Shown piece after piece: positions 2,544-29,467 of a DNA stretch of 64,000 nt. The notes beneath the pieces are model-generated. The model was not told the DNA's origin, ran no database searches, and saw nothing but the letters and a program-made list of their open reading frames with translations. The translations under genes and the position numbers were made by a program. This DNA is from Gammaproteobacteria bacterium (GTDB lineage: Bacteria; Pseudomonadota; Gammaproteobacteria; Ga0077536), in NCBI GenBank assembly GCA_016191285.1, contig JACPPA010000019.1, forward strand, positions 1 through 64,000. The letters are read 5' to 3'. The stretch's first letter is position 1. Each line of letters begins with the position of its first letter.

Positions 2544-3305
2544 CTAGCGCTTGTTGATCACGCGGATGGTCTCGAGTTGTACCCAGGGGGTAAGTACGGT
2601 CGTCGCGCCCGTGATCGGACGCGTCAGGTAGTCCTCGATAATTCGAGCCGTCTGCGCCGACAATTTCTCGGGAACGAATACCACGTCCTCGGGTTCCAGC
2701 TTGATGCTGGCAAGCGCCATGTAAAAGCCGGGTTGGCCGCTTGGCTGCCCGCTCAAGAGCCGCGCGCGCACGTTGCCGTCCTCGCCAACCCGCAGGATCG
2801 CAACCGATGCCGTCTTGCCAGACAGCATCACGTCACCAGCGTTCGCGAGCGCTTCTGCAGCGGTCGACGCCGAGCGCATGGAAATCGCCCCTGGACGATT
2901 GACCCGGCCGAGGACATAGACTTGCGGCTCGCGAATCTTCGTGGGTATGACGGTGACCTCCGGCTCGACGAGGCGCTTCGACAGCAACTCCGTGAGGCGG
3001 GCGTCGAGCTCGGCGAGCGTCAAACCCGCCGCCTTGACCTCGTGAACTATCGGAAATGAGATATACCCGTCCGGTTGCACGGCGACACTTCGGTTGAGAT
3101 CGGGATGGCGCTGCACCACCACATCGAGGATGTCGTAAGCACCGAGAACGTAACGCCCTTTGTAGCGTGCCTTCAGCTCGAGCAACTCCGGCGCGGGAAG
3201 CATGGAATCCGGCGCCGTTTGCGGCATCGAGCATCCGGCTAGTAGCAGTGCGAGCGAACAAAGTCCGGCGGCGACACCCAATCGCGCCGGACGTGTCATT
3301 CTCAT
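2544..3305 (-). CDS. Polysaccharide export outer-membrane lipoprotein (Wza/PEP-CTERM EPS export type)
   Basis: A 253-residue lipoprotein. The signal peptide ends in the lipobox LLAGC with Cys25, so the mature protein is lipidated and probably in the outer membrane. Residues about 50-140 form the Poly_export domain (YVLGAYDILDVVV, VQPDGYISFP) and residues about 145-220 an SLBB-like domain (VYVLGRVNRPGAI, EPEDVVFVPEKL). The family forms the outer-membrane channel that releases capsule or EPS, working with the inner-membrane co-polymerase, here at 22440-24161. It is shorter than E. coli Wza (about 380 residues), as is common for exosortase-linked export proteins. It is divergent from the gene starting at 3554. 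Confidence 0.85.
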   Translation of the reverse strand: MRMTRPARLGVAAGLCSLALLLAGCSMPQTAPDSMLPAPELLELKARYKGRYVLGAYDILDVVVQRHPDLNRSVAVQPDGYISFPIVHEVKAAGLTLAELDARLTELLSKRLVEPEVTVIPTKIREPQVYVLGRVNRPGAISMRSASTAAEALANAGDVMLSGKTASVAILRVGEDGNVRARLLSGQPSGQPGFYMALASIKLEPEDVVFVPEKLSAQTARIIEDYLTRPITGATTVLTPWVQLETIRVINKR

Positions 3306-8971: not shown

Positions 8972-9793
8972 ATGAAAGCGATCAACCGAGGTATGTCGAA
9001 CGAGACTGAAGAGGTACCAACCATGCCGATTCGAATGCCATTGGCCAAGCGCTTGCTCGATCTCGTTGGAGCAGTGGCCTTGTTGCCAGCCTGGGGATCT
9101 GTACTGCTAGTCATCGGGTTGTTGAATCTGCTCGTCAACGGGCGTCCGGCGTTCTACATTTCCACGCGGCGCGTGTACGGCCGGGAGTCCGGACCAGTGA
9201 TCAAGTTCCGAACTATGGTTCGCGACGCGGACAAGATTGCCAACCGCGGAACCGTACCGATCACCGATCAGCGTTTTTTGAACATCGGGCTCGACTCACC
9301 ACTCTACACGCCGCTTGGGCGCATCATCGAGCGATATTTCCTAACCGAGGTGCCCCAGTTCCTGAACGTTCTTACCGGCAGCATGTCCCTGATAGGCAAT
9401 CGCCCCCTGCCGGAGGACGTGATCGCGTCTTTAAAGAAAGCCTACCCGGACGCCGAGCTCCGATTTTCGACTCGTTGCGGTCTGAGCGGCCCGGTGCAGC
9501 TCGTCGGGCGCGATATCATCGACGATGGCGACCGGCTCCGCCTCGAGATCGCCTATGCGCGCAGATGTGTGCAGGCCTATTCCATAACGCTCGACATCAT
9601 GCTGGCCATTTACACCGCACTCATTCTCCTGCGTATCAAGAATCCCATGGACGTGGACGCAGTGGCCGCGCGTCTCGACACCTGGGCCGAGCCCTTTGGT
9701 TTTGGCACGACTGCGGAACTGATCGAGTCGCACGCGACCGATTCCTCAACGATGCGCAAGACCACGAGACCCTCACGCAAGCGTGCGCCCTAG
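8972..9793 (+). CDS. Initiating sugar transferase (undecaprenyl-phosphate sugar-1-phosphate transferase)
   Basis: A 273-residue membrane enzyme that starts EPS assembly by moving a sugar-1-phosphate onto undecaprenyl phosphate. It has one hydrophobic helix at about 31-55, then the conserved motifs KFRTM (78-82), LTGSMSLIGNRPLP (134-147) and CGLSGPVQL near 171. This is the short form without the extra membrane helices of WcaJ. A second hydrophobic stretch (TLDIMLAIYTALILL) is near 210. Start choice is uncertain: AGAGG lies 8 nt before an in-frame ATG at 9023 and is better placed than any signal for 8972. It opens a plus-strand group with the next three genes. Confidence 0.85.
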   Translation: MKAINRGMSNETEEVPTMPIRMPLAKRLLDLVGAVALLPAWGSVLLVIGLLNLLVNGRPAFYISTRRVYGRESGPVIKFRTMVRDADKIANRGTVPITDQRFLNIGLDSPLYTPLGRIIERYFLTEVPQFLNVLTGSMSLIGNRPLPEDVIASLKKAYPDAELRFSTRCGLSGPVQLVGRDIIDDGDRLRLEIAYARRCVQAYSITLDIMLAIYTALILLRIKNPMDVDAVAARLDTWAEPFGFGTTAELIESHATDSSTMRKTTRPSRKRAP

Positions 9794-13692: not shown

Positions 13693-15762
13693 TTACACCG
13701 CTTGAAGTTGAGGGTCGGCCGGAACGGTGTGCAAAACGATATCGCGCTCCAGAGCGTTGAAGCTCACGCGCCGCAACAGCATACCTAAACCGGAATTCGA
13801 CAACCCCCAGACTGCGACCGCTTGCTTGAGCTCCTTGGCATGTGCGTCGCTCAAACGGAACTCAGCTTCGACGTTGATCGGCAGGCGATACTTGCCGGTC
13901 TCGGCGGGACAACCATCACCAAGCCAGCTTGCGATGTCGTAACGTACACTAGTGGCCACCGGTCGCGTTAGCTGCTCCGCGGTCATACCGGTGACCGAGC
14001 GCATGACGATGAAGCGCCCAAAGTCGCTCCAAAATTCCTCGAAGTCGGGCACGCGCTCGCGTGCGCCGTGATCGACGAGCAGCTGCTTGGCCGTCGCCAA
14101 CGCGACAGCCGCAAACGGGTTCCACGCCCGCAGCCGCGCGATGGCTGAGTACTTGTAGACGATGTTGTCGCCGATCTCGCCCTGACTGAGCTTCTCGATA
14201 TTTTCCGGCGTGTCGTAGAAAGCCTTCAGCTCCTCTGGAGAATTGAAAAGCTCGCCCCGCGTCTCGCGCAGGAACGCCGCCAGATACTCACCCACTTCTC
14301 CCGCGTCTGCCGTCACCGCGTCGAAGAGTCGCAGGAACAGATCGGAGCGCTTGACCGCGAGCGACTCGCAGAACTCGAACAAGGTGTCCAGACGACCCTG
14401 ATTCACGTATACGCCGCACACGAAGTGATAGGCGCGTGCCCGTAGGTAGTGTTCGAAGGACAGCGAGTCGGTCGACACAACGATCTCTTCGGGCTCGAAG
14501 ACCGCATCTCCGTCGTAGACACCGAAGCTCTTCTGCGCCATCCGATACTTAGTCTTGAAGGAGAACTTCGCCCTCGAGTCGGTCCGCTCAAGCTCGGTGC
14601 CCTTAAGCAGAAGACACTGGAAGTTGTGGACGCGAGCGACTCCCGCATCGATCATCTTGGTGAGACTGGCTAGGTGCGTCTCCAACGTCTCGCCCGGTAG
14701 GGCGAGAATGAGATCGGAGCTGGACTTCAGGCCGCGGCCGCGAATGTGTACATTGAGGGACGAGTAGGCATCGAGCCTGATGTTCTCACGCTTGATATTC
14801 CGCAGAACATCCTCGTCGAGCGATTGAACCGATTGCCACAGCACCAGCGCTCCACCGACCCGCTCCATTGACTCGATGACTCGCTCCGGACGATTTTTGC
14901 CGGTGGTCGCGTCGATGTACGAGGGCCAGCCGAAGTCATGCTGCGCATTGCCGAGGTAACCTGAAATCTCGGGGTCGCGCGCATACATGCCGTAGTTGGG
15001 ATCCGCAATACGCAGCACGCCCATCGACGGACACTTCGCTTTAATTCGCTTACCGATGTACTGAATCTCTTCACGCAACCGTTCCTTGTCGAAGTATGTG
15101 ACCCGGTTGTAGTACTTCGTGCCCTGCACGCAGAAAGTGCAGGTGAAGGGGCAGCCGCGATTGGTCTCCCACAAGGGCGCCAACTTGCCATCGAAAAACT
15201 CGTCCATGATCCCAGTGAGCCAGGGCGAAGGAATATCGTCGAGGTTACGTGTGCGCTTGACAATGTCGTGACGTATCAGCTCGTCACTGCGGCGATAGAT
15301 GCTAGAGGCGATGTCGCGCTGGCTGAGCGCACGAAAGGACAGTCCGCAATCAGCGAAGTGCTGGACGATCTCGGCCGCCAGGAAATCGCCTTCGCCGAGC
15401 ACGTACCAATCCAGCTCGGGGCGTTCGGCGAGAAAGGTCCGCTGACGCTCCGGTTCGTCGTGGATATTCGGCCCGCCCATCACCACCAGCGTGTCGGGTT
15501 TCATGGCTTTGGCCATTCGCGCGAAATAACGCGAGATCTGCTCGTTCCAGGTGTAGTTGCTAAGCATTAGCACGTCGGGTGCTTGCTGCCGCATGGCGCT
15601 CAAGAGTCGGTCCGGATAGGCGAACACACGCGCATCGCAGTCCGCGCCCAGATCGCGATCCATTACCGCCTTCATGTAGCCGACGTTGAGGGGCATAGCG
15701 TCGCTTGCCAGGACATTCATATAGTTATGCCGCAAATCGGCGAGGTAAACGACAATACTCAT
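13693..15762 (-). CDS. Cobalamin-binding-type radical SAM protein, paralogue A
   Basis: A 689-residue protein. Residues 1-165 form a Rossmann-like B12-binding-type domain (LADLRHNYMNV, SDAMPLNVGYMKAVMD, MLSNYTWNEQ, VMGGPNIHDEP, VLGEGDF). The radical SAM core follows, with Cys204, Cys208 and Cys211 in NRGCPFTCTFCVQG binding the 4Fe-4S cluster and LRIADPNYGMYARD and LILALPGETLETHL as later core strands. From about 430 there is a roughly 250-residue C-terminal extension that I do not recognise. Such enzymes methylate or rearrange unactivated carbons. It is clearly homologous to the next gene, which lies 96 bp upstream. A substrate in polysaccharide or lipid carrier is inferred from context only. 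Confidence 0.85.
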   Translation of the reverse strand: MSIVVYLADLRHNYMNVLASDAMPLNVGYMKAVMDRDLGADCDARVFAYPDRLLSAMRQQAPDVLMLSNYTWNEQISRYFARMAKAMKPDTLVVMGGPNIHDEPERQRTFLAERPELDWYVLGEGDFLAAEIVQHFADCGLSFRALSQRDIASSIYRRSDELIRHDIVKRTRNLDDIPSPWLTGIMDEFFDGKLAPLWETNRGCPFTCTFCVQGTKYYNRVTYFDKERLREEIQYIGKRIKAKCPSMGVLRIADPNYGMYARDPEISGYLGNAQHDFGWPSYIDATTGKNRPERVIESMERVGGALVLWQSVQSLDEDVLRNIKRENIRLDAYSSLNVHIRGRGLKSSSDLILALPGETLETHLASLTKMIDAGVARVHNFQCLLLKGTELERTDSRAKFSFKTKYRMAQKSFGVYDGDAVFEPEEIVVSTDSLSFEHYLRARAYHFVCGVYVNQGRLDTLFEFCESLAVKRSDLFLRLFDAVTADAGEVGEYLAAFLRETRGELFNSPEELKAFYDTPENIEKLSQGEIGDNIVYKYSAIARLRAWNPFAAVALATAKQLLVDHGARERVPDFEEFWSDFGRFIVMRSVTGMTAEQLTRPVATSVRYDIASWLGDGCPAETGKYRLPINVEAEFRLSDAHAKELKQAVAVWGLSNSGLGMLLRRVSFNALERDIVLHTVPADPQLQAV

Positions 15763-15858
15763 CCTGACAACCTTCTCGAATTATTGCTTCGTAACGGTAG
15801 CGATCGCGCTTATCGGCGCGCGATCTGCCTCATTTGTTTCCCACTGAATACATCTCCC

Positions 15859-17949
15859 CTAGGCCACCGCGACGCCTTCGGGCTCCGCCACATGGGGAAA
15901 CTCGCAGGTTCGAATCTGTGACGTCACGCGAATGCGGGTGACGAGCTTCGTCAGTCCCGCAAGTCCGCTGCTCCAGACCCTAAACGCCGATTCCAGTTCG
16001 CGCGCACCTTCCTCACTTAAACGAAACGTCATCGCGCGCCGCTTGCCGTTACGATAATTGGAAGTCTCGTGTGGAAAGCCATCCGCGATCCAGCGCGGAA
16101 TGTCGAAATTCAGGGTCGTGCTCACGGGTCGGAGTACCTCGTCCAAGCTGTCGCCCGAGGCGTGCTTGCATTCGACGTACGAATGAAAGTCGTTCCACAG
16201 CTGGTTGAAGTCGGGATAGCGCTCCGCCGCGCCCGCCGCGAGCACCAATTGCCTAGTCGCTTCCAGCGCCGCGGCGCATATAGCCTTCCACACGAAGAAG
16301 GAGGCCTTGGCCCGGTACTTGTACATGAGGTTATCGCCGATCTCGGCTCGGCCCAGGCGCTCGAAGTTATCGGGGTGAGCATAGAAGGCCTCGCACGATT
16401 CTCGAGTCTCGAACAGCTCCCCCACCGTCTCGCCTACGAAGCCGTCGAGCAGCTCGCGGATCGGGTCAGAAGTCGCCGTCTCCAGGGCTCGCAACATCTC
16501 CTGCAGCCATTTTGACGGCTTGATATCCATCTCTGCGGCAAAGGCCACGACATCGGCGAACCATGAGTCATTCCAGAACACGCTGAAGGTCATGTGATGC
16601 TTGCGGCATTCGACGTAATCGTCGAATGGCAAAGTGTCCGAGCCGACGATGATCTCTTCGATATCGAACACCTTCTCGCCACCATAGATTCCGTAGTTCT
16701 TCGGCAGCACTCTGAAGCGGGTGAGAAATTGGTACCGCTCGCGAACCTCGACAGTCTCCAGGTCGGATCCCTTGAGCACCATGGCCTGGAAACAATGGGC
16801 CTGGTCGGTGCCCGCGTCGATGAGCTGGTAGAGCCCGCGCAAGTGTGACTTCTTGGTCTCGCCGGGCAAGCCGAGAATCAGGTCAGAGTTCGAACGAAGA
16901 CCACGCCCACGCACGTGCACCATGATCTTCTGATACGCGTCCAGCTTGATATTGGAGCGGTCGATGTTGCGCAAGACCTCGTCGTCTAGCGACTGCACGG
17001 CCTGATAAAGGACCAGCGCGCCGTTGACTTTCTCCAGGCATTCGATGATGCGCTCGGGCTTGTTCTTGCCAGTGGTTGCGTCGATGAACGTGGGCCAGCC
17101 GTAACGCTTCTGCATCTGACCGATCATCTCGGCGATCGCGACGTCGCGGCTATACATTCCAAAGTTGGGATCGGCTATGCGCAGAGTGCCCATCTCGGGT
17201 GAGCGCTCGTGGATGGTGCGCGCGATGTACTCGATCTCCGCGCGCAGGCGCTCGAGATCGAAATGCGTGACCTTGTTGTAGAACTCGGTGCCCTGGACAC
17301 AGAACTTGCATTTAAATGGGCAGCCGCGGTTGGTCTCCAACATCGGCGCTAGACGGCCATCGAAGAACTCGTCCATCGCCCCGCTCAGATACGGCGAAAC
17401 GATATCGTCCAAGGAACGCAATCGTGCACGCGTTTCGCTACGGACCAGTTCACCGTTGCGCCTATACACGCTCGATGGCAGTTCGCGCTCCATCAGGCGA
17501 GCGATCGACCGGCCAGAGTCGACGAAGGCATCGACAATTTCGGCCGCGGTGAAATCCGCCTCGCCGTGAATGTAGAGGTCAATCTCCGGGTGCGTCGCGA
17601 CATATTCAAGCTGGCGCACCGGTTCCTTGGAAATGTTTGGTCCACCCATAATCGCCAAGACATCTGGGTTGTATTTCTTGACCCTTCGCAGAAAAAAATG
17701 CCCGAGCGACTCGTTCCACATGTAGTTGCCGACCATGAGCACGTGTGGCGGGCGGGCTTCGATCGCTTGCAGGAGCACGTCTGGATAGGCGAAGATCCGG
17801 ACTTGAACATCACGAGCGGCGAACTTCTCGTCCATGACGGCTTTGATGTAGCCGACACCGAGAGGCATGGCGTCCACGGACACGACGCCACTATAGTTGT
17901 GTCGAAGATCCGCCGCGTAGACGATTGTCCCGGGGTTCGTGTTCTTCAT
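15859..17949 (-). CDS. Cobalamin-binding-type radical SAM protein, paralogue B
   Basis: A 696-residue protein. The ATG at 17949 follows GAGGCAGGA and aligns with the start of paralogue A; the longer open frame to 18225 is not supported. The layout is the same as in paralogue A: a B12-type domain (AADLRHNYSGVVSVDAMPLG, MGGPNISKEP, IHGEADFTAAEI), then Cys210, Cys214 and Cys217 in NRGCPFKCKFCVQG, LRIADPNFGMYSRD, LILGLPGETKKSHL, and an unrecognised C-terminal extension. The two proteins agree nearly throughout, so they arose by tandem duplication and both keep the cluster cysteines. Different substrates or successive steps on one substrate are both possible. Confidence 0.85.
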   Translation of the reverse strand: MKNTNPGTIVYAADLRHNYSGVVSVDAMPLGVGYIKAVMDEKFAARDVQVRIFAYPDVLLQAIEARPPHVLMVGNYMWNESLGHFFLRRVKKYNPDVLAIMGGPNISKEPVRQLEYVATHPEIDLYIHGEADFTAAEIVDAFVDSGRSIARLMERELPSSVYRRNGELVRSETRARLRSLDDIVSPYLSGAMDEFFDGRLAPMLETNRGCPFKCKFCVQGTEFYNKVTHFDLERLRAEIEYIARTIHERSPEMGTLRIADPNFGMYSRDVAIAEMIGQMQKRYGWPTFIDATTGKNKPERIIECLEKVNGALVLYQAVQSLDDEVLRNIDRSNIKLDAYQKIMVHVRGRGLRSNSDLILGLPGETKKSHLRGLYQLIDAGTDQAHCFQAMVLKGSDLETVEVRERYQFLTRFRVLPKNYGIYGGEKVFDIEEIIVGSDTLPFDDYVECRKHHMTFSVFWNDSWFADVVAFAAEMDIKPSKWLQEMLRALETATSDPIRELLDGFVGETVGELFETRESCEAFYAHPDNFERLGRAEIGDNLMYKYRAKASFFVWKAICAAALEATRQLVLAAGAAERYPDFNQLWNDFHSYVECKHASGDSLDEVLRPVSTTLNFDIPRWIADGFPHETSNYRNGKRRAMTFRLSEEGARELESAFRVWSSGLAGLTKLVTRIRVTSQIRTCEFPHVAEPEGVAVA

Positions 17950-18839: not shown

Positions 18840-19499
18840 CTACTTGCCGGCGCGCGACAAACCGGCGCTTCCGGCGTGAGATCGCCGCTGAACGCGAACG
18901 CGGCTAGCGTCGGTTAATACCTTTGAACCAGTAGCGACGTCCATCGTCACCATGGCGCGAAAACTGATTTCTACGTCGTCTCCAATCTCTACTGGACCGA
19001 TGATCGCGGCATCCGCACCCAGATGCACCCGGTCGCCGATTGTTGGCGCCCGGGCGAGCCCACCGCCCACCGGCACATCGTCCGCGGTGCAAGTGGCATA
19101 GGCATATAAGGTCAGATCCCGGCCCGCCACGGCATGGAAATGGAGACCAGCAGGGTGCCGAATTGACCAGCCTCCGGCGACGCAGCTTGCGGGAGAAATC
19201 GTGGTCTTGAATACCAGACGGTTGCAGGCGGCGAGCAGTCCCGGCAATAACGGCATCCGGTTGGCTCGCGCCCAGTGGGCCAACCGGTGAATCACCAGAC
19301 AGGCGACTGCGGGATCCAGCAGCGCGCTCACACATCGCCGTGGCGTGACTGCGCGCTTCGAGTCGATTTCCGCTCGGTCCCAATAGCGGCGAATGTCTTG
19401 CTCGAGTTCGGCCACCACATTCGCCAAGTGGCGATGCCCGCGCTCTACACAAATGCGCAACTCCCGCCTCGCGAGCGAGTTCACTGTCGGCCGGGTCAC
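18840..19499 (-). CDS. Left-handed beta-helix acyltransferase, serine acetyltransferase-like (copy 1)
   Basis: A 219-residue protein. The N-terminal half is helical (LEQDIRRYWDR, VACLVIHRLAHWARANRMP), as in serine acetyltransferases. The C-terminal half carries hexapeptide turns, including PTIGDRVHLGADAAIIGPVEIGDDVEI and SFRAMVTMDVATGS. Translation starts at a GTG that directly follows the TAA of the upstream gene, so the pair is coupled. In an EPS locus the likely task is O-acetylation of a sugar with acetyl-CoA; a cysE role is less likely because two diverged copies lie together here. The usual catalytic His of the hexapeptide domain is not obvious in the sequence. Confidence 0.7.
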   Translation of the reverse strand: MTRPTVNSLARRELRICVERGHRHLANVVAELEQDIRRYWDRAEIDSKRAVTPRRCVSALLDPAVACLVIHRLAHWARANRMPLLPGLLAACNRLVFKTTISPASCVAGGWSIRHPAGLHFHAVAGRDLTLYAYATCTADDVPVGGGLARAPTIGDRVHLGADAAIIGPVEIGDDVEISFRAMVTMDVATGSKVLTDASRVRVQRRSHAGSAGLSRAGK

Positions 19500-20069
19500 T
19501 TAGCGCGCGCGGCGGCTGACACGAACGCGTGGCGTCGATGGCTCGACCACGCTGTCGTCCGGCACGTCCTTGCGCACCACACAACCAGGCGCAATGGTGA
19601 CGTTGTTGCCGACGCGCAATGCTCCGAGCACACCAGCATGAGCGCCAATGGTCACGTTGTCGCCGACCACGGGCAGACCGGGACCGGCTCCTCTATCCTC
19701 GACACTCCCCATCTCGCCGCCAAGGCCGGCCAGCGTGCCCACGGAAAAATTCCGGCCAGCCTTGCCACAGACGGTGACGGCAACTGGGGCAGTCACCAGC
19801 CACCCGCCCCCGATGTCCGAACTCGGTGGGAGATCGGCGCCGGTGACGACCAGATTGAGGTGATAAACCAGACGTGCAATCCTTCTGTGTCCGCAGCAGT
19901 GAAGCCAGTGCGCCCAACGTTGTAGCCACACGCATAGGTAGCGGGTTTCGAGGAGCAGGCACAGAGGTTCGCTTTGATGGTACTCGCGAAGCCAGCCACG
20001 CAGCCGGGTCCGATCGGCGGCCAACCGACCACGCGTGGTCGCGAGATCGATCGGTGTCACTTGCGTCAT
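19500..20069 (-). CDS. Left-handed beta-helix acyltransferase, serine acetyltransferase-like (copy 2)
   Basis: A 189-residue protein. The start at 20069 is chosen because its ATG overlaps the TGA of the upstream polymerase/ligase gene (ATGA), a coupling signal. The N-terminal helical part contains LREYHQSEPLCLLLETR. The C-terminal hexapeptide part contains GLPVVGDNVTIGAHAGVLGALRVGNNVTIAPGCVV, the classical left-handed beta-helix pattern ending in a KDVP loop. It is paralogous in layout to copy 1 but diverged. It probably acetylates a sugar of the polysaccharide. Acceptor and acyl donor are not visible. Confidence 0.75.
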   Translation of the reverse strand: MTQVTPIDLATTRGRLAADRTRLRGWLREYHQSEPLCLLLETRYLCVWLQRWAHWLHCCGHRRIARLVYHLNLVVTGADLPPSSDIGGGWLVTAPVAVTVCGKAGRNFSVGTLAGLGGEMGSVEDRGAGPGLPVVGDNVTIGAHAGVLGALRVGNNVTIAPGCVVRKDVPDDSVVEPSTPRVRVSRRAR

Positions 20070-21739
20070 TGCCCGAGCCAGCCCCGCCGAGTATCGGTTG
20101 CGGGGGAACGCGTGACCATCCAGACGCGCGCGAAGCAACCAGGGTCATCGCGCGCCACGCAGGCATGCGCGGCGCGCGCGGCGCTGCTCTCATGCGTGCG
20201 TCGCCAGTATCCGATGGCCAGAATCAATGCGACGACGAACCAGAACATGCGCCCCCCAACTTCCATACGAACGAAAAAACTCACCAGACCGTCGAGCATG
20301 ACGGCGCCGAACCCACTCAGCAGACCGACGTTCATTGCATGCAGAAATCCGTCCTTCAGCTTCAGATTGTTGAGTCCGACGAACAGAACCTGCAGATGAA
20401 TGAGGACGAACACCGCCATTCCCACGGTGCCCTGCTCGGCCCAGGTCAACAGCCAGGTGCTGTGCACCACGGGAACATTCTCGCCATAGAAGCCCGTCAT
20501 GCCCTCATAGGTCCTGAAGCGAGTGTAGGGCGGTTGCGCAAAGACGTAGCTGTTGAGGCCAAGGCCGAATATAGGCTTGTCCAAGATGATGCGTTTGGCG
20601 GTCTCCACGAACTCCATCCGCGAGCGCCACGATTCCGGATCACTGTACTGAATACGCTCGATGATCTTAGGACTGGCGGCAAGTCCCACCACGCCTATCA
20701 GACTGATAACCACCGCCCGCGCGATGAGGAATCGACGCCGCGATGATCGATGCAGGAAGCCGAGCGTCAGCGTGCCGACAAGCGCCGCCGCAAAGCAAAT
20801 CCAGCCACTTCTCGAGAGTGTGAGTAAAAGGCCAACCTGTCCCGCGATCAGTATGCAGACGAACAGGCCCTTCAACAGCATGCCGATCGGCGAGAACAAC
20901 AATGCGACACCGAGCGGCATGATGAGCGCTAGATAACCCGCGAACTGGTTTGGGTGCCCCATCAGTCCGCCGGGCCGGCGAATCACGAAATCGCCTTTTA
21001 GGGTGGCTTGGCCCAACTCTTCGACATTCTTCTCCGTTTCCTCGCCGACGAACTCCAGCCCGAACTGCGACCCGGACGCATACGAGGCGACCGAGAAGAC
21101 ACTCTGAATCAGCACGCCAAGCAAGAGCGCGAATGCGACATGCAGGAACTGCTTCCTGCGCTTTAGCTCGTTGATCAACACCAGCAATAAGATCAGATAT
21201 TTGGACATCCGCACCATTTCGTGCGCGGCCGGTGTCTTGAACGGGCCAGTTGCCAAGGTGACCAGGCCAAGCGCGATCATGAACAGCCACAGCTTCGCAA
21301 GCAGCGGTACGCGGTAGCCTTGCAACCGGGCCTTGCGCCAGTCGTTGAACTGATAAGCCGCCAACATGAGAACGAACGGCGCGCCCGCGTCCAACAGGAA
21401 CGACCCAGAACCACCCTGGTGCCCTATCGGCATGAAATTTTTGCCGAGCTTCAAGGGTGCGAACATCACCACCGCATACAGCACGAACAGGCGCCGGTTG
21501 CCGGAGAGCAGAACACCCAAGGCCCCGATCAGCCCGAGAATCAGCCCGACGACGAACTTCATATCGGTGAACGCGAAGGTAGTCGTGACAACTGCAAAGA
21601 GGGCGACGAGAACGGCAACGGCCGCAAGCGTGATGGCGTTGACAACGGGCGAGCGAGCGAACGGCCACAGGGCCTGCGTCGCCCGCGCCCGGCTAAAACT
21701 AGAGAGATTGTAAGACTGTAGCCACCCGCCGGTTGCCAT
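20066..21739 (-). CDS. O-antigen polymerase/ligase-like membrane protein (Wzy/WaaL family)
   Basis: A 557-residue integral membrane protein with about 11-12 hydrophobic segments. The diagnostic Wzy_C region is around residues 290-420: LALIMPLGVALLFSP, LLTLSRSGWICFAAALVG, then a long periplasmic loop with KPIFGLGLNSYVFAQPPYTR and VPVVHSTWLLTWAEQGTVG. It would polymerise undecaprenyl-linked repeats or join them to an acceptor; sequence alone does not separate the two roles. The last 45 residues are polar and Arg-rich and may be cytoplasmic. It starts three bases after the stop of the CpsD-like gene and overlaps the next gene by ATGA, so 24161-18840 is probably one operon. Confidence 0.85.
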   Translation of the reverse strand: MATGGWLQSYNLSSFSRARATQALWPFARSPVVNAITLAAVAVLVALFAVVTTTFAFTDMKFVVGLILGLIGALGVLLSGNRRLFVLYAVVMFAPLKLGKNFMPIGHQGGSGSFLLDAGAPFVLMLAAYQFNDWRKARLQGYRVPLLAKLWLFMIALGLVTLATGPFKTPAAHEMVRMSKYLILLLVLINELKRRKQFLHVAFALLLGVLIQSVFSVASYASGSQFGLEFVGEETEKNVEELGQATLKGDFVIRRPGGLMGHPNQFAGYLALIMPLGVALLFSPIGMLLKGLFVCILIAGQVGLLLTLSRSGWICFAAALVGTLTLGFLHRSSRRRFLIARAVVISLIGVVGLAASPKIIERIQYSDPESWRSRMEFVETAKRIILDKPIFGLGLNSYVFAQPPYTRFRTYEGMTGFYGENVPVVHSTWLLTWAEQGTVGMAVFVLIHLQVLFVGLNNLKLKDGFLHAMNVGLLSGFGAVMLDGLVSFFVRMEVGGRMFWFVVALILAIGYWRRTHESSAARAAHACVARDDPGCFARVWMVTRSPATDTRRGWLGQ

Positions 21740-21742
21740 GGG

Positions 21743-22399
21743 CTAACCCGCGAGGACGAGGCCCACACGCGAGGCGCCGCAATCGAGCAGAATGTCGCGT
21801 GCCTGCTCGATGCGCGAAACCCGGGTCTTCCCTTCAAGGACCACCACCAAAGCTGCCTCGCAGAGCGAAGCGAAGGCGAGCGAACGTCCACCGGATACGA
21901 CGCTGGCACCTTGCACCAAGACGAAATCGGCGGTCTCCGTGGCGATATCGAGGAACGCGCGCAGGCGTTTGGATGGCGCCGATGCCACATAACCGTTCGT
22001 CGGTCGCCCGGCCGGCAACCAGGATACCAGCAGGTTGGTGGTTGGCAACGTCGCTGCGCGAAGTTGCTGTTGCTCGAGCGCATCCTCCTCCAGCAGCTCG
22101 ATGAGACCCGAAGCGAAGGCGTCACCCAGCAATGAGCCAATGCCCTGCCTGCCGAAGGTGCCATCGACCATCAACACGCTCCGCCCATACTCCTCGGCAA
22201 GACTGAGCGCGATCTCGGCACAAGCTTCCACGCCGACTCTGTCATCATCGGCGCCGGCAACGAATATCGCACAGGCGCGATCTTCATTCGCAAGCTGACG
22301 ATCGAGCCTCAATGCAAGCTGACTCGCCGTGCCACGATGTTTGAGATCATCGGCGCGCTGGCCTCCGAGTCCGAGCAAAGACCGCCAACGCCCTACCAT
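21743..22399 (-). CDS. CpsD/CapB-like protein with degenerate P-loop (probable pseudo-kinase)
   Basis: A 218-residue protein of the bacterial tyrosine kinase/ParA fold, placed right after its usual partner, the chain-length regulator. The fold order is visible: first strand CAIFVAGADDDRVGVEACAE, then SVLMVDGTFGRQGIGSLLGD, then NLLVSWLPAGRPTNG, then DFVLVQGASVV. The Walker A sequence, normally GEGKS/GKT, is ADDDRVGVE with no Lys-Ser/Thr, and the second motif reads VDGT in place of the usual DAD. ATP binding and kinase activity are therefore unlikely. No Tyr cluster is present at the C-terminus, which ends VGLVLAG. It may act as a structural partner only. GGAGG lies before the ATG. Confidence 0.75.
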   Translation of the reverse strand: MVGRWRSLLGLGGQRADDLKHRGTASQLALRLDRQLANEDRACAIFVAGADDDRVGVEACAEIALSLAEEYGRSVLMVDGTFGRQGIGSLLGDAFASGLIELLEEDALEQQQLRAATLPTTNLLVSWLPAGRPTNGYVASAPSKRLRAFLDIATETADFVLVQGASVVSGGRSLAFASLCEAALVVVLEGKTRVSRIEQARDILLDCGASRVGLVLAG

Positions 22400-22439: not shown

Positions 22440-24161
22440 TCATGACCCGCGCAACCTGTCGATCGCGCGCTGCGGGGCGGGGTGGGAATGGGAGTACCCG
22501 AGCGCCGATCCGGCGCGAGAAGAATCGTCGATCTCGATGGTTCCGAAAACTGGTAGATCCTGGCGTAAGGCGAGCCGGTCGCGGGTCACGACATTGGAGA
22601 TCATGTCGAGGAACAATCCAAGCCCGATCCCTGTGAGGACCCCGACCAGGATAGCCACCATCATGAACAACTTCTCTTTTGGCCAGACCGGCTTGGCAGG
22701 CGGGAGCGAGTAGTCGATGATCTTGAACGTCGATGGCGCGCTTAGGGCAGTGGCGAGCGAGACTTCGGCCATCATGAGGCGCTCCCTCAGCAGCTTGTGG
22801 CGAGTCCCACTGGTGTTGAGGTCTTGCTGCAACAGGGCGCTCTCAGCTTTCAGCTTCGGCAGCGCCGCGAGCTGTGCGCCGATCTTGGCGTATGTCCCCC
22901 GTCTCGTTGCGAGCTCAGCCTCGGTTCCGGCCATCGACTTCAAGAGATCTTGCCGCGTTTGGCGCAGCCGCAGGTGGTTCTCGTTCTTGGCTCGCGTCGT
23001 AGCGTGCTTGCGCTCGTCCGGCTCGGCGTCGATCGCGGCGCGGGTCTCCGCAATCAACGCCTTTAGCTCGCGGACCTCGGGCGAGTCTTCATGCATGCGG
23101 GTCAAGGTCTGACGCAGGTTGTTATTAAGCTCAAAGAGATGTGCACGCATCTGCTCTTTGACTCCGCTTGCCTGTACAGTGCTGCTCAGCTCGAGTTCCT
23201 CCGGCTCCTTGGTGAGCTCCGCCGTAACCACCTCCATGGCTTGCCTCTGGCTCGAGAGCTGGGCCTCCAGTTTCGCCAGCCCGAGGCCCAGCTCAACCCA
23301 CTGCCCCATCAATACTTCGTCCTTCTGGAAACCGAGCAGTAACGCGTTTCGGGTCTCGAATTCCTCGATCGCCCGTTGCGATCGAATAAGTCCCTGTCTT
23401 GCCTTCTCAACTTCTTGGCCCAGCGACTTATATGACTCCCGTGCCTCTTCCGCGAACTGGCGACGCCGATCGGCGATAAACTCGTCGATCAGGGTATTCG
23501 CATACTCGGCCACCCGCGGCGACGGGCCTTGCACGATCAAATTACCGACATGAGTACCCGGAATTGGGGTAAGGCTTGCTCCAGCCCGGAAATCACGCAC
23601 CGTCCTCGCGAGTTCCTTCATTCCCGGGCTCAACGCATAAGGATTGGGCTCCTTCGGAAAAAACCATTCCTTGATTCGACGGTACTGGTTACCGATCCAG
23701 GACTGTTCCCACAAGTACAGCGTATGTTCGAGCGGAGGATGATAGACGTCGTCATAGCTTAGCTTGAGCTTTTCCACCACTTTGCGCACGACCGGGAATG
23801 CAGTCGCCAACTCGATATCCGAGTCGAGATCGTTCTTGCGGAATGTCGACCAGAGCTTATAGTACTCCTCTCTGACCACATCCTTGTCGCTCTCCGCGAG
23901 TACCATCACCTTGGCTTCGTATACTGGCGGGTAGAGTTTGAAATAGGCTTGCATCAGTCCCGCCGACGCGAGGCCGCAGAGCAAGATGAGGAGCTTGTGC
24001 CCGCGGATACACGCGAGCAATTGATGCAAGGCGCCGCGGACGTCGAAATCGTCAAGATCGTTTGCCGGACGCGCATCGTAGGTCACTCCCGATAGGCTGC
24101 CGCGCGAACCTGGTGTGCCAGGTGGCCTCGCGGGTTCAGGCACTAGGTGGTGATCGGTCAT
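22440..24161 (-). CDS. Polysaccharide co-polymerase / chain-length regulator (Wzz-GNVR type)
   Basis: A 573-residue inner-membrane protein. A cytoplasmic N-terminus of about 50 residues precedes TM1 (LLILLCGLASAGLMQAYFKL). A large periplasmic part with long coiled coils follows (about 235-420, e.g. EVEKARQGLIRSQRAIEEFE, LFELNNNLRQTLTRMHEDSP). The conserved Pro-rich segment PPAKPVWPKEKL leads into TM2 (LFMMVAILVGVLTGIGLGLF). There is no fused kinase domain; the separate gene at 21743 takes that place. The family sets chain length and docks with the outer-membrane exporter, here 2544-3305. GGAAAG lies before the ATG. It is first in the probable operon running to 18840. Confidence 0.85.
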   Translation of the reverse strand: MTDHHLVPEPARPPGTPGSRGSLSGVTYDARPANDLDDFDVRGALHQLLACIRGHKLLILLCGLASAGLMQAYFKLYPPVYEAKVMVLAESDKDVVREEYYKLWSTFRKNDLDSDIELATAFPVVRKVVEKLKLSYDDVYHPPLEHTLYLWEQSWIGNQYRRIKEWFFPKEPNPYALSPGMKELARTVRDFRAGASLTPIPGTHVGNLIVQGPSPRVAEYANTLIDEFIADRRRQFAEEARESYKSLGQEVEKARQGLIRSQRAIEEFETRNALLLGFQKDEVLMGQWVELGLGLAKLEAQLSSQRQAMEVVTAELTKEPEELELSSTVQASGVKEQMRAHLFELNNNLRQTLTRMHEDSPEVRELKALIAETRAAIDAEPDERKHATTRAKNENHLRLRQTRQDLLKSMAGTEAELATRRGTYAKIGAQLAALPKLKAESALLQQDLNTSGTRHKLLRERLMMAEVSLATALSAPSTFKIIDYSLPPAKPVWPKEKLFMMVAILVGVLTGIGLGLFLDMISNVVTRDRLALRQDLPVFGTIEIDDSSRAGSALGYSHSHPAPQRAIDRLRGS

Positions 24162-24237: not shown

Positions 24238-25254
24238 CTAATCGAGGTCTAGGTAGCAGCGGTACCAGGCCACTGTCTCATCGAGCCGGGCCGCGACGGT
24301 CGCCTCTGGCGACCACTCAAGGTCGCGCCTTGCAGCCTCATATGACAGGTATTGGTTGGCAATTTCTGCCTTTGCCTCGTCGAGGATTAGGGGGCGCAAA
24401 TCCCGCCGGCCAGTGGCGTTCAGGATTAGCTCTACAAGCTGCAATACGGATAGCTGCTCACCGGTCCCGAAATTAAACGCGCGCCCTTTGATGGCATCAC
24501 GATCGAGCCGCTCGGCGAGATGAAGATACCCAGAGACGACATCGTCGATGAAGATGTAGTCGCGCACCGGCGTTCCATCGCTGCGAATAATTGGCCGTTC
24601 ACCGCGCAAAGCCGAGCGAATGGTTCCCGGAATGACCCTGCTGAAATTGACATCCCGCGGTCCAAAAATGTTCCCGCACCGGGTCACGCCGACTGGGAGT
24701 CCGAAAGTGTGTGCATAGGTGAGCGCGATTAAGTCCGCGCAACTCTTGGAGACATCGTAAGGATGCCGCCCCGCAAGCGCGTGCTCTTCGGTGTATGGAA
24801 GCGTCCGATGATCGCCGTAAGCCTTGTCGCTGGAGGCGACGACCACTCGCGCGACGAGTGGGCTGCGCCGACAGGCCTCCAACACGCTCCAGGTGCCCTG
24901 GATATTGGTTTCGAAGGTGGCGACGGGGTTGCGATTGGCCACACCGACTATCGCCTGGGCCGCCAAATGAAATACACAGGACACTTCGTACTCGTTGAGC
25001 ACGCGTTCGATGGTCCCCTGATCTTGCACCTCGCCGCGGACGACGACGATCCGGGAGTCGATGGCTTCGCGATGCAACGGACTCCACGGCACCTGATCTC
25101 GGACCAGGCCGACAACCTCGGCGCCGCGGTCCACCAATACCTGAGTCAACCGTGCGCCCAGAAACCCGCTGCAGCCGGTGACGAGAACGGAGCGGCCTCG
25201 CCAAAAGCCCGCATGCGTTTCCCCGACCTCAGCGCCCCCCCCGATATCGGTCAC
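24238..25254 (-). CDS. rfbG: CDP-glucose 4,6-dehydratase-like NAD-dependent sugar dehydratase
   Basis: A 338-residue short-chain dehydrogenase/epimerase fold enzyme. [17 protein letters not shown] is the NAD-binding glycine motif (TGxxGFxG), [11 protein letters not shown] carries the catalytic Ser/Asp-Lys pattern of 4,6-dehydratases, and YDVSK is the active-site Tyr-Lys. [20 protein letters not shown] and [18 protein letters not shown] match the CDP-glucose dehydratase type. The product would be CDP-4-keto-6-deoxyglucose, the entry point to dideoxy and branched sugars. Its start overlaps the end of the rfbF-like gene by 26 bp. The later enzymes of a known dideoxyhexose route are not adjacent. 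Confidence 0.82.
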
Positions 25255-25990
25255 TCGGCTCCTCCGGCTGGCTGCTTGGTTTCAGTGTTGTCTGACGGGG
25301 GCGAACCCAGGGGATTGCCCCCCCCTCGATGAGTTCCTCGAACTCGCGCTGATCCTTGAAGCTATCCATTGACTTCCAGAATCCGTCGTGCTTGTACGCG
25401 AATGCGTGACCTCCCGCGACCAGCGCGGGAAGCACCTCGCGCTCGAGATCGTTGCCACGCCAATGCTTGAACACCGCGCTTTCGAAAACGAAGTAGCCCG
25501 CGTTCATCCAGTGCTCGCGCATCACTGGCTTCTCGCGTATGCGGATCACGCGGCCGTCACCATCGATATCAACCACCCCATACTGTGAATACAACGGAAC
25601 GCAGGTCATCGTCGCGAGCCCCTGGTGGCCAACATGGTAGTCGACCACTTCATCGAGGGCCACGTCAGCAAGTCCGTCTCCGTAGGCGACGAAGAATCGT
25701 TCACCCACCAGGTCCCGGCACGCGTAAACACGGTCGGCCGTGTTGGCACTCTCGCCGGTATCCACGATCTGCACATTGGCGCCTATGTCCTTGCCCTGGA
25801 AGTAGTCGTCGAGAACGCTCTTGCGATGGCCCGCGGCCAGTAGGAAATCGTTGTACCTGTACCGCATGAAAGTACGCATGACCTGCACCAGGATCGGCGC
25901 GCCGGCGACGGGCATCATGGGTTTGGGCAGGAACTCGCTGAATGGAAACGCCCGCACGCCTTGGCCCCCACACAAGATCAATACCTTCAC
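25229..25990 (-). CDS. rfbF: Glucose-1-phosphate cytidylyltransferase-like nucleotidyltransferase
   Basis: A 253-residue nucleotidyltransferase that would make CDP-glucose from glucose-1-phosphate and CTP. The GTG at 25990 is chosen because GAGGTG lies five bases upstream and [11 protein letters not shown] then forms the N-terminus; the open frame to 26155 is a read-back. Key motifs are [20 protein letters not shown] (nucleotide binding), [12 protein letters not shown] (metal-binding Asp), [19 protein letters not shown] and [17 protein letters not shown] near the end. The tail after about residue 225 is Pro/Arg-rich and overlaps rfbG. Pairing with rfbG supports CDP-sugar synthesis. Confidence 0.82.
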
Positions 25991-26364
25991 GAACACCTCA
26001 CTGATACGCTGAACCCGGCGCCTCGGGGTCGTTTGCTGGCGGTTGGGTTGCTGACTCTCCGTGTTGCGGGACGCAGCTATCGCCAATCGCGCCTTAGCTG
26101 AAGACCGCGTCGTTCGGGGTCTCGGACCCGGCTCTTGCTCGGGTCTATGCTCCACTTTCGCGCTCGCAGCTTACCGAGTTCCAATCCGCACCGCGCGCAA
26201 ACGTTTGTGGACAATGTTTGCGCAGTGTTGCATCAAAGCCATTTGGGACACAAGAATCGTTCCTGCGGGGATTGGGAATGTCGGCTAGGCATTCGCCTGG
26301 AACATGGGGTTTGCGGTTTGATGTGGCCGAATAGGCTAAACGTGGCGCCACTGGCATGTGAAAT
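25991..26364. other. Intergenic region with inverted repeat
   Basis: About 370 bp upstream of rfbF without a gene. It holds the inverted repeat at 26195-26223 and ends at the REP-like element at 26365-26453. Short frames here have no support. Confidence 0.45.
26195..26223. promoter_or_regulatory. Inverted repeat, possible operator
   Basis: GCGCAAAC and GTTTGCGC form a perfect 8-bp inverted repeat separated by 13 bp, with the smaller palindrome CAAACGTTTG inside. The spacing and size suit a dimeric regulator binding upstream of the CDP-sugar genes, but no regulator gene is in the locus. Confidence 0.3.
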
Positions 26365-27280: not shown

Positions 27281-28309
27281 TCACGCGGCTCGCAGACTGC
27301 GCGGCAATAGACGGCACGTCGCGCACGGCATGTCATCGCGTAGCGGCGCACGTCCGGCCAGCATCTTCTGCAAATAACGATAGTCGCGGCCTGCCATCAG
27401 ATCTGCGAGCGGGGTCTCGAAGGCGTTGCCGAACGCGCGCGAATTGTTGAAACAACATCCGAGGAGATCGCCATTCCAGTTAACCTGCGGTTCGTCCCAG
27501 ACCTGATGGCAGAAGCCCAGATTGTCGGCGAGCGAGTCGAGAACCACATCTGTGCTGGTGGCTAGGTCGATGCGAGCGCGCTCCGCTGTTCGCCGCGGCT
27601 GGCGGATCGGTGAGTAGTCGGCGGCGAGATTGCGGATGGCCCGAAACTTCATGCCCCGCGCCTCGGCCATCGCGCGCGCCGCATCGATCTCGTCCTCGTT
27701 GTGACCGAAGACGATGAACTGCCAGGTCAGTGCGGGAAACTCACTTGCATACTTTCGCTTGAAGTGGTTGATGCACTCGACATTCGCGAGCACTCGAGCG
27801 AGATCGCCGTTGATGCGGAAGGTGGCGTAACTCGCGCTTGATGCGCCATCGATGGAGATCGTGAGCGCACGCACGCCGCAGCGCACAACCGCTTCCAGCG
27901 CGCTCTCGGTGGCCGTGTTCAGATTTACGCCATTGGCGACCGTTACCGGCACGCCGCCAACTCGAGTTCGTTCGAGAAGGTCGGTGAGACGGCGATTCAG
28001 GAAGATCTCGCCCCAGTTCGAGATCTCCAGCAAGCGGATCCGGCCCGCTTTGCCGAGAAATCGCGACAGGTCGTCGGGCGCGAGTTCGCCCCACGCCACG
28101 ATGCCCGAGCGAGTTTCGCCATGCGCAGTTGCGCAGGTCGGGCATTTGAGCTGGCATTTGCTGCACACCTCCAACCGAACCTTGCGGCCGAGTAGCACCG
28201 CCTCCAAGGAGCAGAGGACGGCATAGGCGGATGACCATCCGAGCCACTGCAGTAGAATCCGACGAATCGTCCCCTTCAGCCTGGGCAGCAGCATGCCTGG
28301 ATCCGCCAC
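27281..28309 (-). CDS. Radical SAM/SPASM domain protein
   Basis: A 342-residue radical SAM enzyme. The cluster motif is Cys52, Cys56 and Cys59 in CSKCQLKCPTC, followed by LLEISNWGEIFLN (a variant of the GGEP region), TISIDGASSASYATFR and NLAADYSPIRQPR. The C-terminal part has further cysteines (LGFCHQVWDEP, GDLLGCCFNN, MPCATCRLLP) that fit a SPASM-type auxiliary cluster domain. A leading hydrophobic segment (about 20-40) may bind it to the membrane. It starts 15 bp after the end of the next radical SAM gene, in the same operon. The substrate is unknown; SPASM enzymes act on peptides and on some sugars or aglycones. Confidence 0.82.
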   Translation of the reverse strand: MADPGMLLPRLKGTIRRILLQWLGWSSAYAVLCSLEAVLLGRKVRLEVCSKCQLKCPTCATAHGETRSGIVAWGELAPDDLSRFLGKAGRIRLLEISNWGEIFLNRRLTDLLERTRVGGVPVTVANGVNLNTATESALEAVVRCGVRALTISIDGASSASYATFRINGDLARVLANVECINHFKRKYASEFPALTWQFIVFGHNEDEIDAARAMAEARGMKFRAIRNLAADYSPIRQPRRTAERARIDLATSTDVVLDSLADNLGFCHQVWDEPQVNWNGDLLGCCFNNSRAFGNAFETPLADLMAGRDYRYLQKMLAGRAPLRDDMPCATCRLLPRSLRAA

Positions 28310-28324
28310 TCGCCACGCGCGCCT

Positions 28325-29467
28325 TTAGCTCGGTGGCACGGAAAGGGAACTCGCTGGCTCCAGCCCGCGCCGGGCCCTGAAGAGCTTCACGCCCATCTTC
28401 ACCTTGTCCGCAAGGGTCTTCTGCGAAAGGCAGGTAAACAGGCACAGCTTGCCGCAGCCGATGGTTTCCCCGCGCACCGCGCGAGCTTTCTCGCCATACC
28501 AAATGTCGCGCGCGGATTGATGGCGAATATTGCCGACGACCGGGTAAAAGAAGCAGAGCTCGACATCGCCATTGGTGCGGATGAAGAAATCGCGCAAGCC
28601 GACTCGGCAGGCACCGATCTTGGCCGGCGCGCGCTCTTCGCGGAAGTGCGGGGCCATCAACCTCAGGATCGCCGGCTGGTTGACGATCGCGTGCCCACGG
28701 GCGTGCATGTCACACAGCAACTCGGTGACCCGCTCGAGGTCGGCTAGATCCTTCTCGGTATCCACCCACAGTTCGTCATAGGTCTCCTGCGTGGAGCGAT
28801 GCATGGGCTGGAAATTAACTGCGCTCGCCCCGGCACGCTCCGCCCAGTGCACAATGTCGGGCATCTTGCGGAAGTTGGCCTTGTTGATCGTCGGCTTGAC
28901 GATGATCGGGAAATCGATGCCCTGCGCGTGCTGTTCCGCGCGAAGGTGGTTGATACCCGCGCTTAGGGTATCGAATAAGCCGGGCCAGCCACGCAGGTAG
29001 TCATGCGTCGCGGCGTCCGGTCCGTCGCACGAGATGTTCACATTGAGCGGTCGCGCGGCTACGGTACGCGCGGCAGTTTTGCGCGAGAAAGCTGAGCCGT
29101 TGGTCGTCACGCCGGCCTCGATGTCCTGTTCGCGGCACCACCCGAGCAAATCGATAAATCCCTTTTTCATGAAGGGCTCGCCGCCGCTGAAGCTGATCGA
29201 GTACTTGCCCACGAACTCCTTGATGTCGAGTAGCGCGTGCTGCCACTGCTCGATGGTCATCTCGGACTGATAGCTCTCCAGGCGCCAGAAGTCGCAGTAG
29301 CGACAGCGCACGTTGCAGCGTTCGTTGACCAGGCCGTAGAAAGAGATCGGGCGCGTCAGATCGGGCCCGGCACGAAGATAGATTTCCTCGGCGAGATGAT
29401 TACGGGCGTGCTGAACGGCCAGTCGACTCAGTGAGTTCAGTTGCACTGAAGGCGTCTCCCCCGTCAC
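28325..29467 (-). CDS. Radical SAM/SPASM domain protein
   Basis: A 380-residue radical SAM enzyme. Cys51, Cys55 and Cys58 in NERCNVRCRYCDFW bind the catalytic cluster. SISFSGGEPFMKKGF is the GGEP motif, followed by VTTNGSAFSRK, NVNISCDGPDAATHD and IIVKPTINKANFRKMP. The C-terminal region carries IGACRVGLRDFFIRTNGDVELC and IGCGKLCLFTCLSQ, a SPASM or twitch-type cysteine set. It is first of a two-gene minus-strand operon with 27281-28309 and is divergent from the GT9 gene at 29569. Its relation to polysaccharide synthesis is by position only. Confidence 0.83.
   Translation of the reverse strand: MTGETPSVQLNSLSRLAVQHARNHLAEEIYLRAGPDLTRPISFYGLVNERCNVRCRYCDFWRLESYQSEMTIEQWQHALLDIKEFVGKYSISFSGGEPFMKKGFIDLLGWCREQDIEAGVTTNGSAFSRKTAARTVAARPLNVNISCDGPDAATHDYLRGWPGLFDTLSAGINHLRAEQHAQGIDFPIIVKPTINKANFRKMPDIVHWAERAGASAVNFQPMHRSTQETYDELWVDTEKDLADLERVTELLCDMHARGHAIVNQPAILRLMAPHFREERAPAKIGACRVGLRDFFIRTNGDVELCFFYPVVGNIRHQSARDIWYGEKARAVRGETIGCGKLCLFTCLSQKTLADKVKMGVKLFRARRGLEPASSLSVPPS

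Follow-up and report, generated by a model that had tools for sequence, protein, structure and literature searches.

Two adjacent B12-type radical SAM genes

The window analysed here, i.e., the whole stretch of 64,000 nucleotides taken from contig JACPPA010000019.1 of a Gammaproteobacteria bacterium (assembly GCA_016191285.1), carries two related genes, P1 and P2, which encode B12-binding/radical S-adenosylmethionine (SAM) proteins and lie within a polysaccharide locus. P1 (13693..15762, minus strand) encodes a protein of 689 amino acids with a TokK/CysS architecture. Its homologue P2 (15859..17949, minus strand) is located 96 bases upstream, head to tail on the same strand, and encodes 696 amino acids when read from its ATG; its longest open reading frame (ORF) begins at a GTG at position 18225 and its homologues begin near the ATG. 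The two proteins share 49% identity and 67% positives over 688 columns, the identity being 53% in the cobalamin (Cbl)-binding domain, 60% in the radical SAM domain and 34% in the C-terminal domain.

Each protein harbours, in this order, a B12-binding domain, a radical SAM core with a CxxxCxxC motif and about 260 additional residues. In P1, the Cbl-binding Rossmann domain would extend over residues 1-185 (15208..15762, minus strand; PF02310 at residues 15-127, limits set by analogy with CysS 1-185), the radical SAM domain over residues 186-430 (14473..15207, minus strand; PF04055 at residues 200-362, limits from the P1 model) and the extension, a C-terminal domain of TokK/CysS type by its fold, over residues 431-689 (13696..14472, minus strand). 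The C-terminal domain of P2 was placed by alignment at 15862..16641 (minus strand). ORFs, cysteines, lower-axial Trp, lineage and locus were computed directly, and the fold is the one predicted for P1. The alignment locates the cluster motif CPFTCTFC at residues 204-211 of P1 (15130..15153, minus strand) and CPFKCKFC at residues 210-217 of P2 (C210, C214 and C217; 17299..17322, minus strand), so that the two intact ORFs with cysteine motifs described by a first-pass annotation, made from the DNA letters, are indeed found at this place. Trp72 of P1 (15547..15549, minus strand) and Trp78 of P2 (17716..17718, minus strand) align with the Trp that is the lower-axial residue of TokK (W76) and CysS (W75).

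Pfam searches detect PF04055 above its cut-off in both proteins and PF02310 above its cut-off in P1 (45 bits), and no domain other than B12-binding and radical SAM was found in P1 or P2 at E≤1. A sequence search of the PDB with P1 gives TokK (E 5e-41) and CysS (E 1.5e-37) as the best two of six matches. A profile built from 14 relatives raises these matches to E 1e-70 and 4e-58, and lengthens the one with TokK as far as profile position 476, but not across the extension. The PF02310 region, PF04055 and these PDB matches all agree with the earlier identification of both proteins as B12-type radical SAM enzymes. Among NCBIfam models, the best one for both is KedN5 (NF033712; E 9e-58 for P1 and 2e-59 for P2), whose best stretch stops at model position 505 (P1) or 398 (P2) of 624. 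Membership of the KedN5 subfamily is not claimed, the scores being 195.9 (P1) and 201.7 (P2) bits for a cut-off of 700. With both scores so far below this nearest NCBIfam cut-off, it was fair to propose, at least for the subfamily, that the family is perhaps functionally undescribed.

The C-terminal extension

The extension had been presented as unrecognised and perhaps as a new domain found only with this core. The first part stands at the sequence level: searched alone, the extension has no Pfam match at E≤10 in P1 or P2, and that of P1 has no sequence match in the PDB at E≤10. The second part does not stand once the predicted fold is considered. The full-length model of P1, obtained from 14 aligned rows, has a mean predicted local distance difference test score (pLDDT) of 86 and, from residue 431 onwards, 23 of 26 ten-residue blocks have a pLDDT of 84-96. 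VIA-align superimposes this model on CysS (Z 34.2, root mean square deviation (rmsd) 3.9, 583 of 628 residues, model residues 1-678) and on TokK (Z 27.4, rmsd 3.8, 613 of 661 residues, model residues 1-680), with lower scores for MgmA (22.8), AprD4 (22.7), OxsB (21.7) and TsrM (21.4). Foldseek agrees for the full model (TokK, E 1e-36).

As the core alone could account for the match of a long model, residues 431-689 of P1 were also folded separately (pLDDT 88.4). The top five VIA-align matches of this isolated domain are CysS 408-631 and TokK 430-672 (190-210 of 259 residues, rmsd 3.9-4.8), with Z scores of 10.2-10.7, to be read knowing that a Z below 8, or below about 13 for helical bundles, may reflect a common arrangement only. 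In Foldseek, six TokK/CysS chains are ranked first (best E 0.013). A chance match is argued against by the top entries being the right domain of the right enzymes at the right place in the chain. The fold evidence comes from the P1 model, the C-terminal domain of P2 being placed by alignment. The isolated domain also weakly resembles TglHI (Z 8.0 and 7.5) and NGO1945 (Z 6.2), at or below the caution level of VIA-align; in Foldseek, NGO1945 is seventh, before the third CysS entry.

The extension is best read, from this predicted fold, as the known third domain of TokK and CysS, missed by sequence searches. The hypothesis of a new C-terminal domain was thus abandoned, the isolated P1 domain matching CysS 408-631 and TokK 430-672 best: the profile search of the extension found nothing and structure prediction gave a characterised domain, essentially the outcome that the first-pass annotation had named as contrary to its proposal. 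In CysS, the C-terminal domain (residues 433-630) helps to build the channel for the substrate, to which it contributes a helix, and bears residues in contact with the substrate; Asp607, His617 (by docking) and a mobile loop containing Phe485 also belong to it (PMC12846815).

Active-site residues

Pocket residues were mapped by alignment with the corresponding stretches of TokK and CysS. The Trp under the cobalt is kept in all 28 family rows, as well as in both rows added later. CysS W188, W206, F238, W271, L272, S273 and H371 correspond to Ala, Gln, Arg, Asp, Ala, Thr and Phe, and these seven mapped core pocket positions are identical between P1 and P2. Across 11 close rows, Arg, Asp, the second Ala and Thr are invariant; two rows deviate at the first Ala, one at Gln and one at Phe. 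In P1, R251, D284 and T286 are predicted to contact a CDP-sugar. As far as the alignment goes, the pocket shared by P1 and P2 differs from those of both solved enzymes, yet P1 and P2 agree with each other.

Twenty-two positions are fixed differently in the two P1 rows and in the nine others, and 14 of them lie in the C-terminal domain. Beside the cluster motif, both P1 rows have Trp198 (a Trp is also found in TokK) and the nine others a Leu or Ile. The earlier suggestion that the tandem serves two related steps or acts on two substrates is possible, judging from the same seven core pocket residues combined with C-terminal domains of 34% identity, versus 60% for the radical SAM domains.

Lineage and distribution

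The pair had been called tandem duplicated. The genes are in tandem and 49% identical, but their origin by local duplication is contradicted by two phylogenetic trees, both without outgroup root. The first one contains 28 rows (L009 and L010 being left out) and the second one 17 chosen rows; rows were cut back where an ORF overhung at the N-terminus, and the N-terminus of L164 is missing. The long branches L063, L068, L072 and L073 unsettle the deep part of the first tree; the second omits them and still gives a long-branch warning. P2 groups at full support with L057, from the proteobacterial metagenome-assembled genome (MAG) G405, and with L055 at supports of 100/98 (28 rows) and 87/88 (17 rows). 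L055 belongs to the same phylum as the Planctomycetota MAG L002; P1 is thus more distant from P2 than are genes from another proteobacterial genome and from Planctomycetota. P1 and its L001 orthologue fall outside the other close relatives, which are grouped at 93/97 and 90/88 (values not starred). A clade uniting P1 and P2 (window and L001 types held together) is rejected by the approximately unbiased test (p-AU 4.4e-5 with 28 rows and 6.5e-4 with 17 rows), so that a recent local tandem duplication was discarded. The rejection of this clade indicates, on these alignments, that the pair consists of two old lineages side by side, which could have arisen by an old duplication followed by losses or by transfer.

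Close relatives are defined here as those sharing about 48% identity or more. A search of 36 genomes of the order to which the window belongs (threshold 1e-30) matched four of them. The pair occurs only in the window's genome and in G019, whose assembly is apparently that of L001, and a single distant match is present in each of the two others. So far, the P1 lineage is known from no other family of bacteria than that of the window. No other close relatives occur in the 369 genomes of the class and the 299 genomes of the phylum searched. Elsewhere, close relatives occur in 2 of 392 genomes of the phylum of G402 and in 4 of 397 genomes of the class of G404, two of which are G402 and G404. Between the window and its sister L001/G401, identity reaches 84.5% for P1 and 83.5% for P2, 85% for an RfbG-like and 84% for an RfbF-like protein (see below), versus 64-76% for the other assigned genes compared.

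A plasmid search gave one distant relative (30% identity). L165, carried by the Azospirillum oryzae plasmid NZ_CP054615.1, belongs to a distant branch and has annotated neighbours that include carbamoyltransferase, GNAT and further radical SAM genes; the neighbourhood of L064 resembles it by our own reading of the ORFs. Relatives of the family with 26-34% identity are also common on IMG/VR viral contigs (at least 314 confirmed among 600 stretches with the pattern, of which the best 80, L083-L162, were kept).

The polysaccharide locus

Genes for the synthesis and export of a cell-surface polysaccharide surround the pair. A Wza-type polysaccharide export protein (2544..3305, minus strand), a polyprenyl-phosphate sugar transferase (Bac_transf; 8972..9793, plus strand) and a Wzx-type polysaccharide flippase convergent with P1 (12234..13667, plus strand) are encoded on one side. 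On the other side are found two hexapeptide acyltransferase-like proteins (18840..19499 and 19500..20138, both minus strand), a membrane protein of the Wzy_C/O-antigen ligase family (20066..21739, minus strand), a protein without Pfam match that is kinase-like by position only (21743-22399), a Wzz-like chain length determinant (22440..24161, minus strand), an RfbG-like NAD-dependent sugar-nucleotide dehydratase (24238..25254, minus strand), which is the recurrent partner of the close family, and an RfbF-like sugar-1-phosphate nucleotidyltransferase (25229..26155, minus strand). The locus also holds glycosyltransferases and a DegT aminotransferase. The best NCBIfam model for the RfbF-like protein is glucose-1-phosphate cytidylyltransferase, below its cut-off; that for the RfbG-like protein is CDP-glucose 4,6-dehydratase (TIGR02622), with 192.6 bits for a cut-off of 278, which is not reached. 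The RfbG-like protein carries SSDKAYG, which we take to be the Asp-Lys motif typical of CDP-glucose dehydratases. At the edge of the locus, two adjacent genes (27281-28309 and 28325-29467, minus strand) encode radical SAM/SPASM proteins that score far below every NCBIfam cut-off shown.

Linkage to RfbF/RfbG-like genes in relatives

The loci of relatives were considered linked when an RfbG-like gene (at least 49% identity) and an RfbF-like gene occur on the same stretch, stretches of at least 11 kb being counted. Gene calls in relatives come from a rough script based on ORFs and GC frame, and neighbours were checked by Pfam or BLAST unless given as our own reading. Linkage is found in five of the six loci of the close family (window, G401, L055, L163 and L164; not L054) versus two of 17 in the distant family (one-sided Fisher test, p 0.003). 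The window, whose genes supplied the query, is positive by construction; without it, four of five close-family loci are linked (p 0.009), and three of four when its sister G401 is also removed (p 0.028). When, in addition, the four Streptomyces loci and the sister pair L060/L062 are each counted once, p is 0.022. It should be emphasized that the count was made after the pattern had been noticed and that the rows are not independent; after that point, no close relatives other than L163 and L164 were fetched, and both show the RfbF/RfbG-like link. Loci shorter than 11 kb were left out (L006, L010, L056, L057, L058, L059, L066 and L070, the last with a 30% RfbG-like match), and the count did not include the overlapping short loci L012-L052, the viral loci and the relatives in G578, G604, G673, G685, G001 and G017.

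In L055, one strand carries the radical SAM gene followed by RfbF-like, RfbG-like, GT2 and DUF1972-GT4 glycosyltransferase genes. L164 has the radical SAM, RfbF-like and RfbG-like genes side by side on one strand, followed by a Wza gene, a Wzz-like gene, a homologue of the protein encoded at 21743 and a Wzy gene (for the Wzz-like gene and this homologue, BLAST against the window is the only basis). In L163, the RfbF- and RfbG-like genes start 2.6 and 3.3 kb after the radical SAM gene. Furthermore, a fusion of nucleotidyltransferase, hexapeptide repeats and polyprenyl-phosphate sugar transferase is encoded directly upstream of the radical SAM gene in L054 (11239-12978), L058 (3019-5130) and L163 (6526-8517).

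Proposed function

That P1 and P2 are C-methylases of the TokK/CysS type is very probable, the chemistry being deduced from family and fold. If they are, the gene neighbourhood makes it reasonably probable that their substrate is a sugar of the exopolysaccharide. The two together give the interpretation that we favour by a modest degree of belief: P1 and P2 would be three-domain Cbl-dependent radical SAM C-methylases acting on a sugar of a Wzx/Wzy exopolysaccharide. The methylation chemistry is thus suggested by the family, whereas the sugar substrate and the division of labour between the two enzymes are suggested by context only.

According to this proposal, a Cbl-binding Rossmann domain and a radical SAM barrel would be followed by a helical C-terminal domain closing the substrate channel. 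The target would be an unactivated carbon of a polymer sugar, probably the product of an RfbF/RfbG-like CDP-hexose branch, methylated either at the sugar-nucleotide stage or once the sugar is on the lipid carrier. By analogy with TokK and CysS, a first SAM would methylate cob(I)alamin, while a second one would be cleaved at the [4Fe-4S] cluster to give a 5'-deoxyadenosyl radical that abstracts a hydrogen from the sugar; the resulting sugar radical would then accept the methyl group from methylcobalamin. P2 would represent the widespread form. P1, an old lineage of its own that shares the core pocket residues of P2 but has a C-terminal domain that has diverged, would probably perform a second methylation at a related position or on a related unit. 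This distinct second step is a guess drawn from the identical core pocket residues and the diverged C-terminal domain.

Several observations weigh against this proposal. To our knowledge, the substrates of TokK and CysS are all carrier- or pantetheine-bound acids and none is a sugar. The PF02310 match of P2 covers the same region as in P1 with 25.5 bits, below the cut-off of 32.1. In the P1 model, core residues 281-350, which include several of the mapped pocket positions, only have a pLDDT of 61-79, so that the pocket mapping rests on sequence alignment, and the isolated extension has no Foldseek match at E≤0.001. The position of TokK W215 and CysS W206, two residues after the last cluster Cys, is occupied by Gln in nine of nine close rows and by Glu in L163, and the active site is therefore not a simple copy of those of TokK and CysS. 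The Trp is a feature of these two enzymes and not of the whole class; TsrM has a Glu there (PMC9692996). Some close relatives also lie in other surroundings. Both loci of G405 are on short contigs, L056 beside an acyl-CoA dehydrogenase-like gene, an alpha/beta hydrolase and an amidohydrolase, i.e., a catabolic setting, and L057 beside a sulfotransferase and a ferrochelatase, and the G405 genome has no RfbG-like gene at E≤1e-40. In G402 and G404, the RfbG-like gene is on another contig than the radical SAM gene (that of G404 being 8.4 kb long). Lastly, no CobS match was found in the genome of the window, which suggests salvage or import of B12. This genome has two cobalamin riboswitches and PF02310 in other ORFs, three of which exceed the cut-off (their lengths of 1261, 1151 and 175 amino acids would be compatible with methionine synthase and acyl-CoA mutases); it uses B12 and probably obtains it by import or salvage.

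Among the alternatives, the same enzymes could methylate something other than a sugar, such as an amide- or ester-linked acid decorating the polymer, or a secondary metabolite whose genes share the locus. We consider this rather unlikely. The solved relatives act on a carbapenam and on a pantetheine-linked aminobenzoate; the neighbourhoods of distant relatives (the Azospirillum plasmid and, by our own reading, L064), with their carbamoyltransferase, GNAT and other radical SAM genes, and the catabolic genes beside L056 point in the same direction, as do the two hexapeptide acyltransferase-like genes of the window's locus. However, a scan of 20 neighbours in the window reported no family of nonribosomal peptide synthetases (NRPS), polyketide synthases (PKS) or carrier proteins, and the genes that recur with the close family concern sugar nucleotides and polysaccharides.

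Conversely, the substrate could be a sugar and the reaction, with or without cobalamin, something other than a methylation, e.g., a 1,2-diol dehydration like that of AprD4, an epimerisation or an OxsB-like ring contraction. AprD4, which is not known to use cobalamin, acts on a sugar and has a close fold (Z 22.7, 416 of 453 residues), and the Gln or Glu found two residues after the last cysteine departs from the Trp of TokK and CysS. The probability of such a reaction nonetheless appears low: over the full length, the scores of CysS and TokK exceed that of AprD4, and both also match the isolated C-terminal domain, the Trp located under the cobalt in these two enzymes is invariant, and the NCBIfam model for AprD4-type diol dehydratases (NF033070) gives 22.5 bits for P2 (cut-off 500) and is not among the 24 families listed for P1 at E≤1. 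As for P1, its divergent lineage, restricted so far to the window's own family of bacteria, and its C-terminal domain, only 34-36% identical to those of P2, L055 and L054, would fit a decoy or a regulatory partner without catalysis of its own. This is highly improbable, as P1 retains the three cysteines, the Trp under the cobalt and the seven CysS-mapped pocket positions as in P2, and is as well conserved as P2 between the window and L001.

Beyond this locus, it is possible, albeit somewhat doubtful, that exopolysaccharides have a dedicated subfamily of Cbl-dependent radical SAM C-methylases, spread across phyla, which would branch a CDP-hexose-derived sugar of Wzx/Wzy polymers. The lineage of the window would have added an anciently separate second enzyme, identical in its core pocket but with a different channel-closing domain, leading to two C-methylations. 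If this is true, structural polysaccharides carry B12-dependent C-methyl sugars and the supply of B12 shapes the cell surface. The enzyme kind and its third domain are already known, and it is the pathway setting that is apparently new. Among the open-access papers listed, no title or beginning of abstract deals with B12 radical SAM enzymes that would take part in making exopolysaccharide or O-antigen; coverage being incomplete, this is weak evidence of absence. The branching of exopolysaccharide sugars by bacterial B12 radical chemistry is a testable possibility, for which L055 and L164, with radical SAM, nucleotidyltransferase and dehydratase genes side by side, are natural candidates.

Comparison with known systems

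CysS (PDB 9n1b, 9n1c and 9n1d), the O-alkyl C-methylase of cystobactamid, acts on a pantetheine-linked aminobenzoate (PMC12846815). It resembles P1 and P2 by the same three domains in the same order, the full-length fold of P1, the C-terminal domain taken alone, the Trp under the cobalt and the CxxxCxxC motif. However, it shares only about 21% identity with P1 in the structural alignment, its W188, W206, F238 and W271 are replaced by Ala, Gln, Arg and Asp in both P1 and P2, and it does not belong to a polysaccharide locus. In the same way, TokK, one of the carbapenem C6 methylases TokK/ThnK (PDB 7kdx and 7kdy), is the best PDB sequence match of P1 and resembles it by its full-length fold, its C-terminal domain and the equivalent of W76, whereas W215 and R280 are replaced by Gln and Asp in P1 and P2 and the substrate of TokK is a carbapenam. 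KedN5 (NF033712) provides the best NCBIfam model for P1 and P2, yet both remain far under its 700-bit cut-off.

MoeK5 and GenD1 methylate sugar units. These two enzymes and GenK, from the moenomycin and gentamicin pathways, are placed in the methylating subgroup of Cbl radical SAM enzymes in one study (PMC8992657), and GenK is reported to catalyse the C-6' methylation of gentamicin X2 (PMC4039129). P1 and P2 would belong, by description, to the same enzyme class as these three, which differ from them in acting in antibiotic pathways. Sugar C-methylation, as proposed for P1 and P2, has precedents within the Cbl radical SAM class in GenK, GenD1 and MoeK5.

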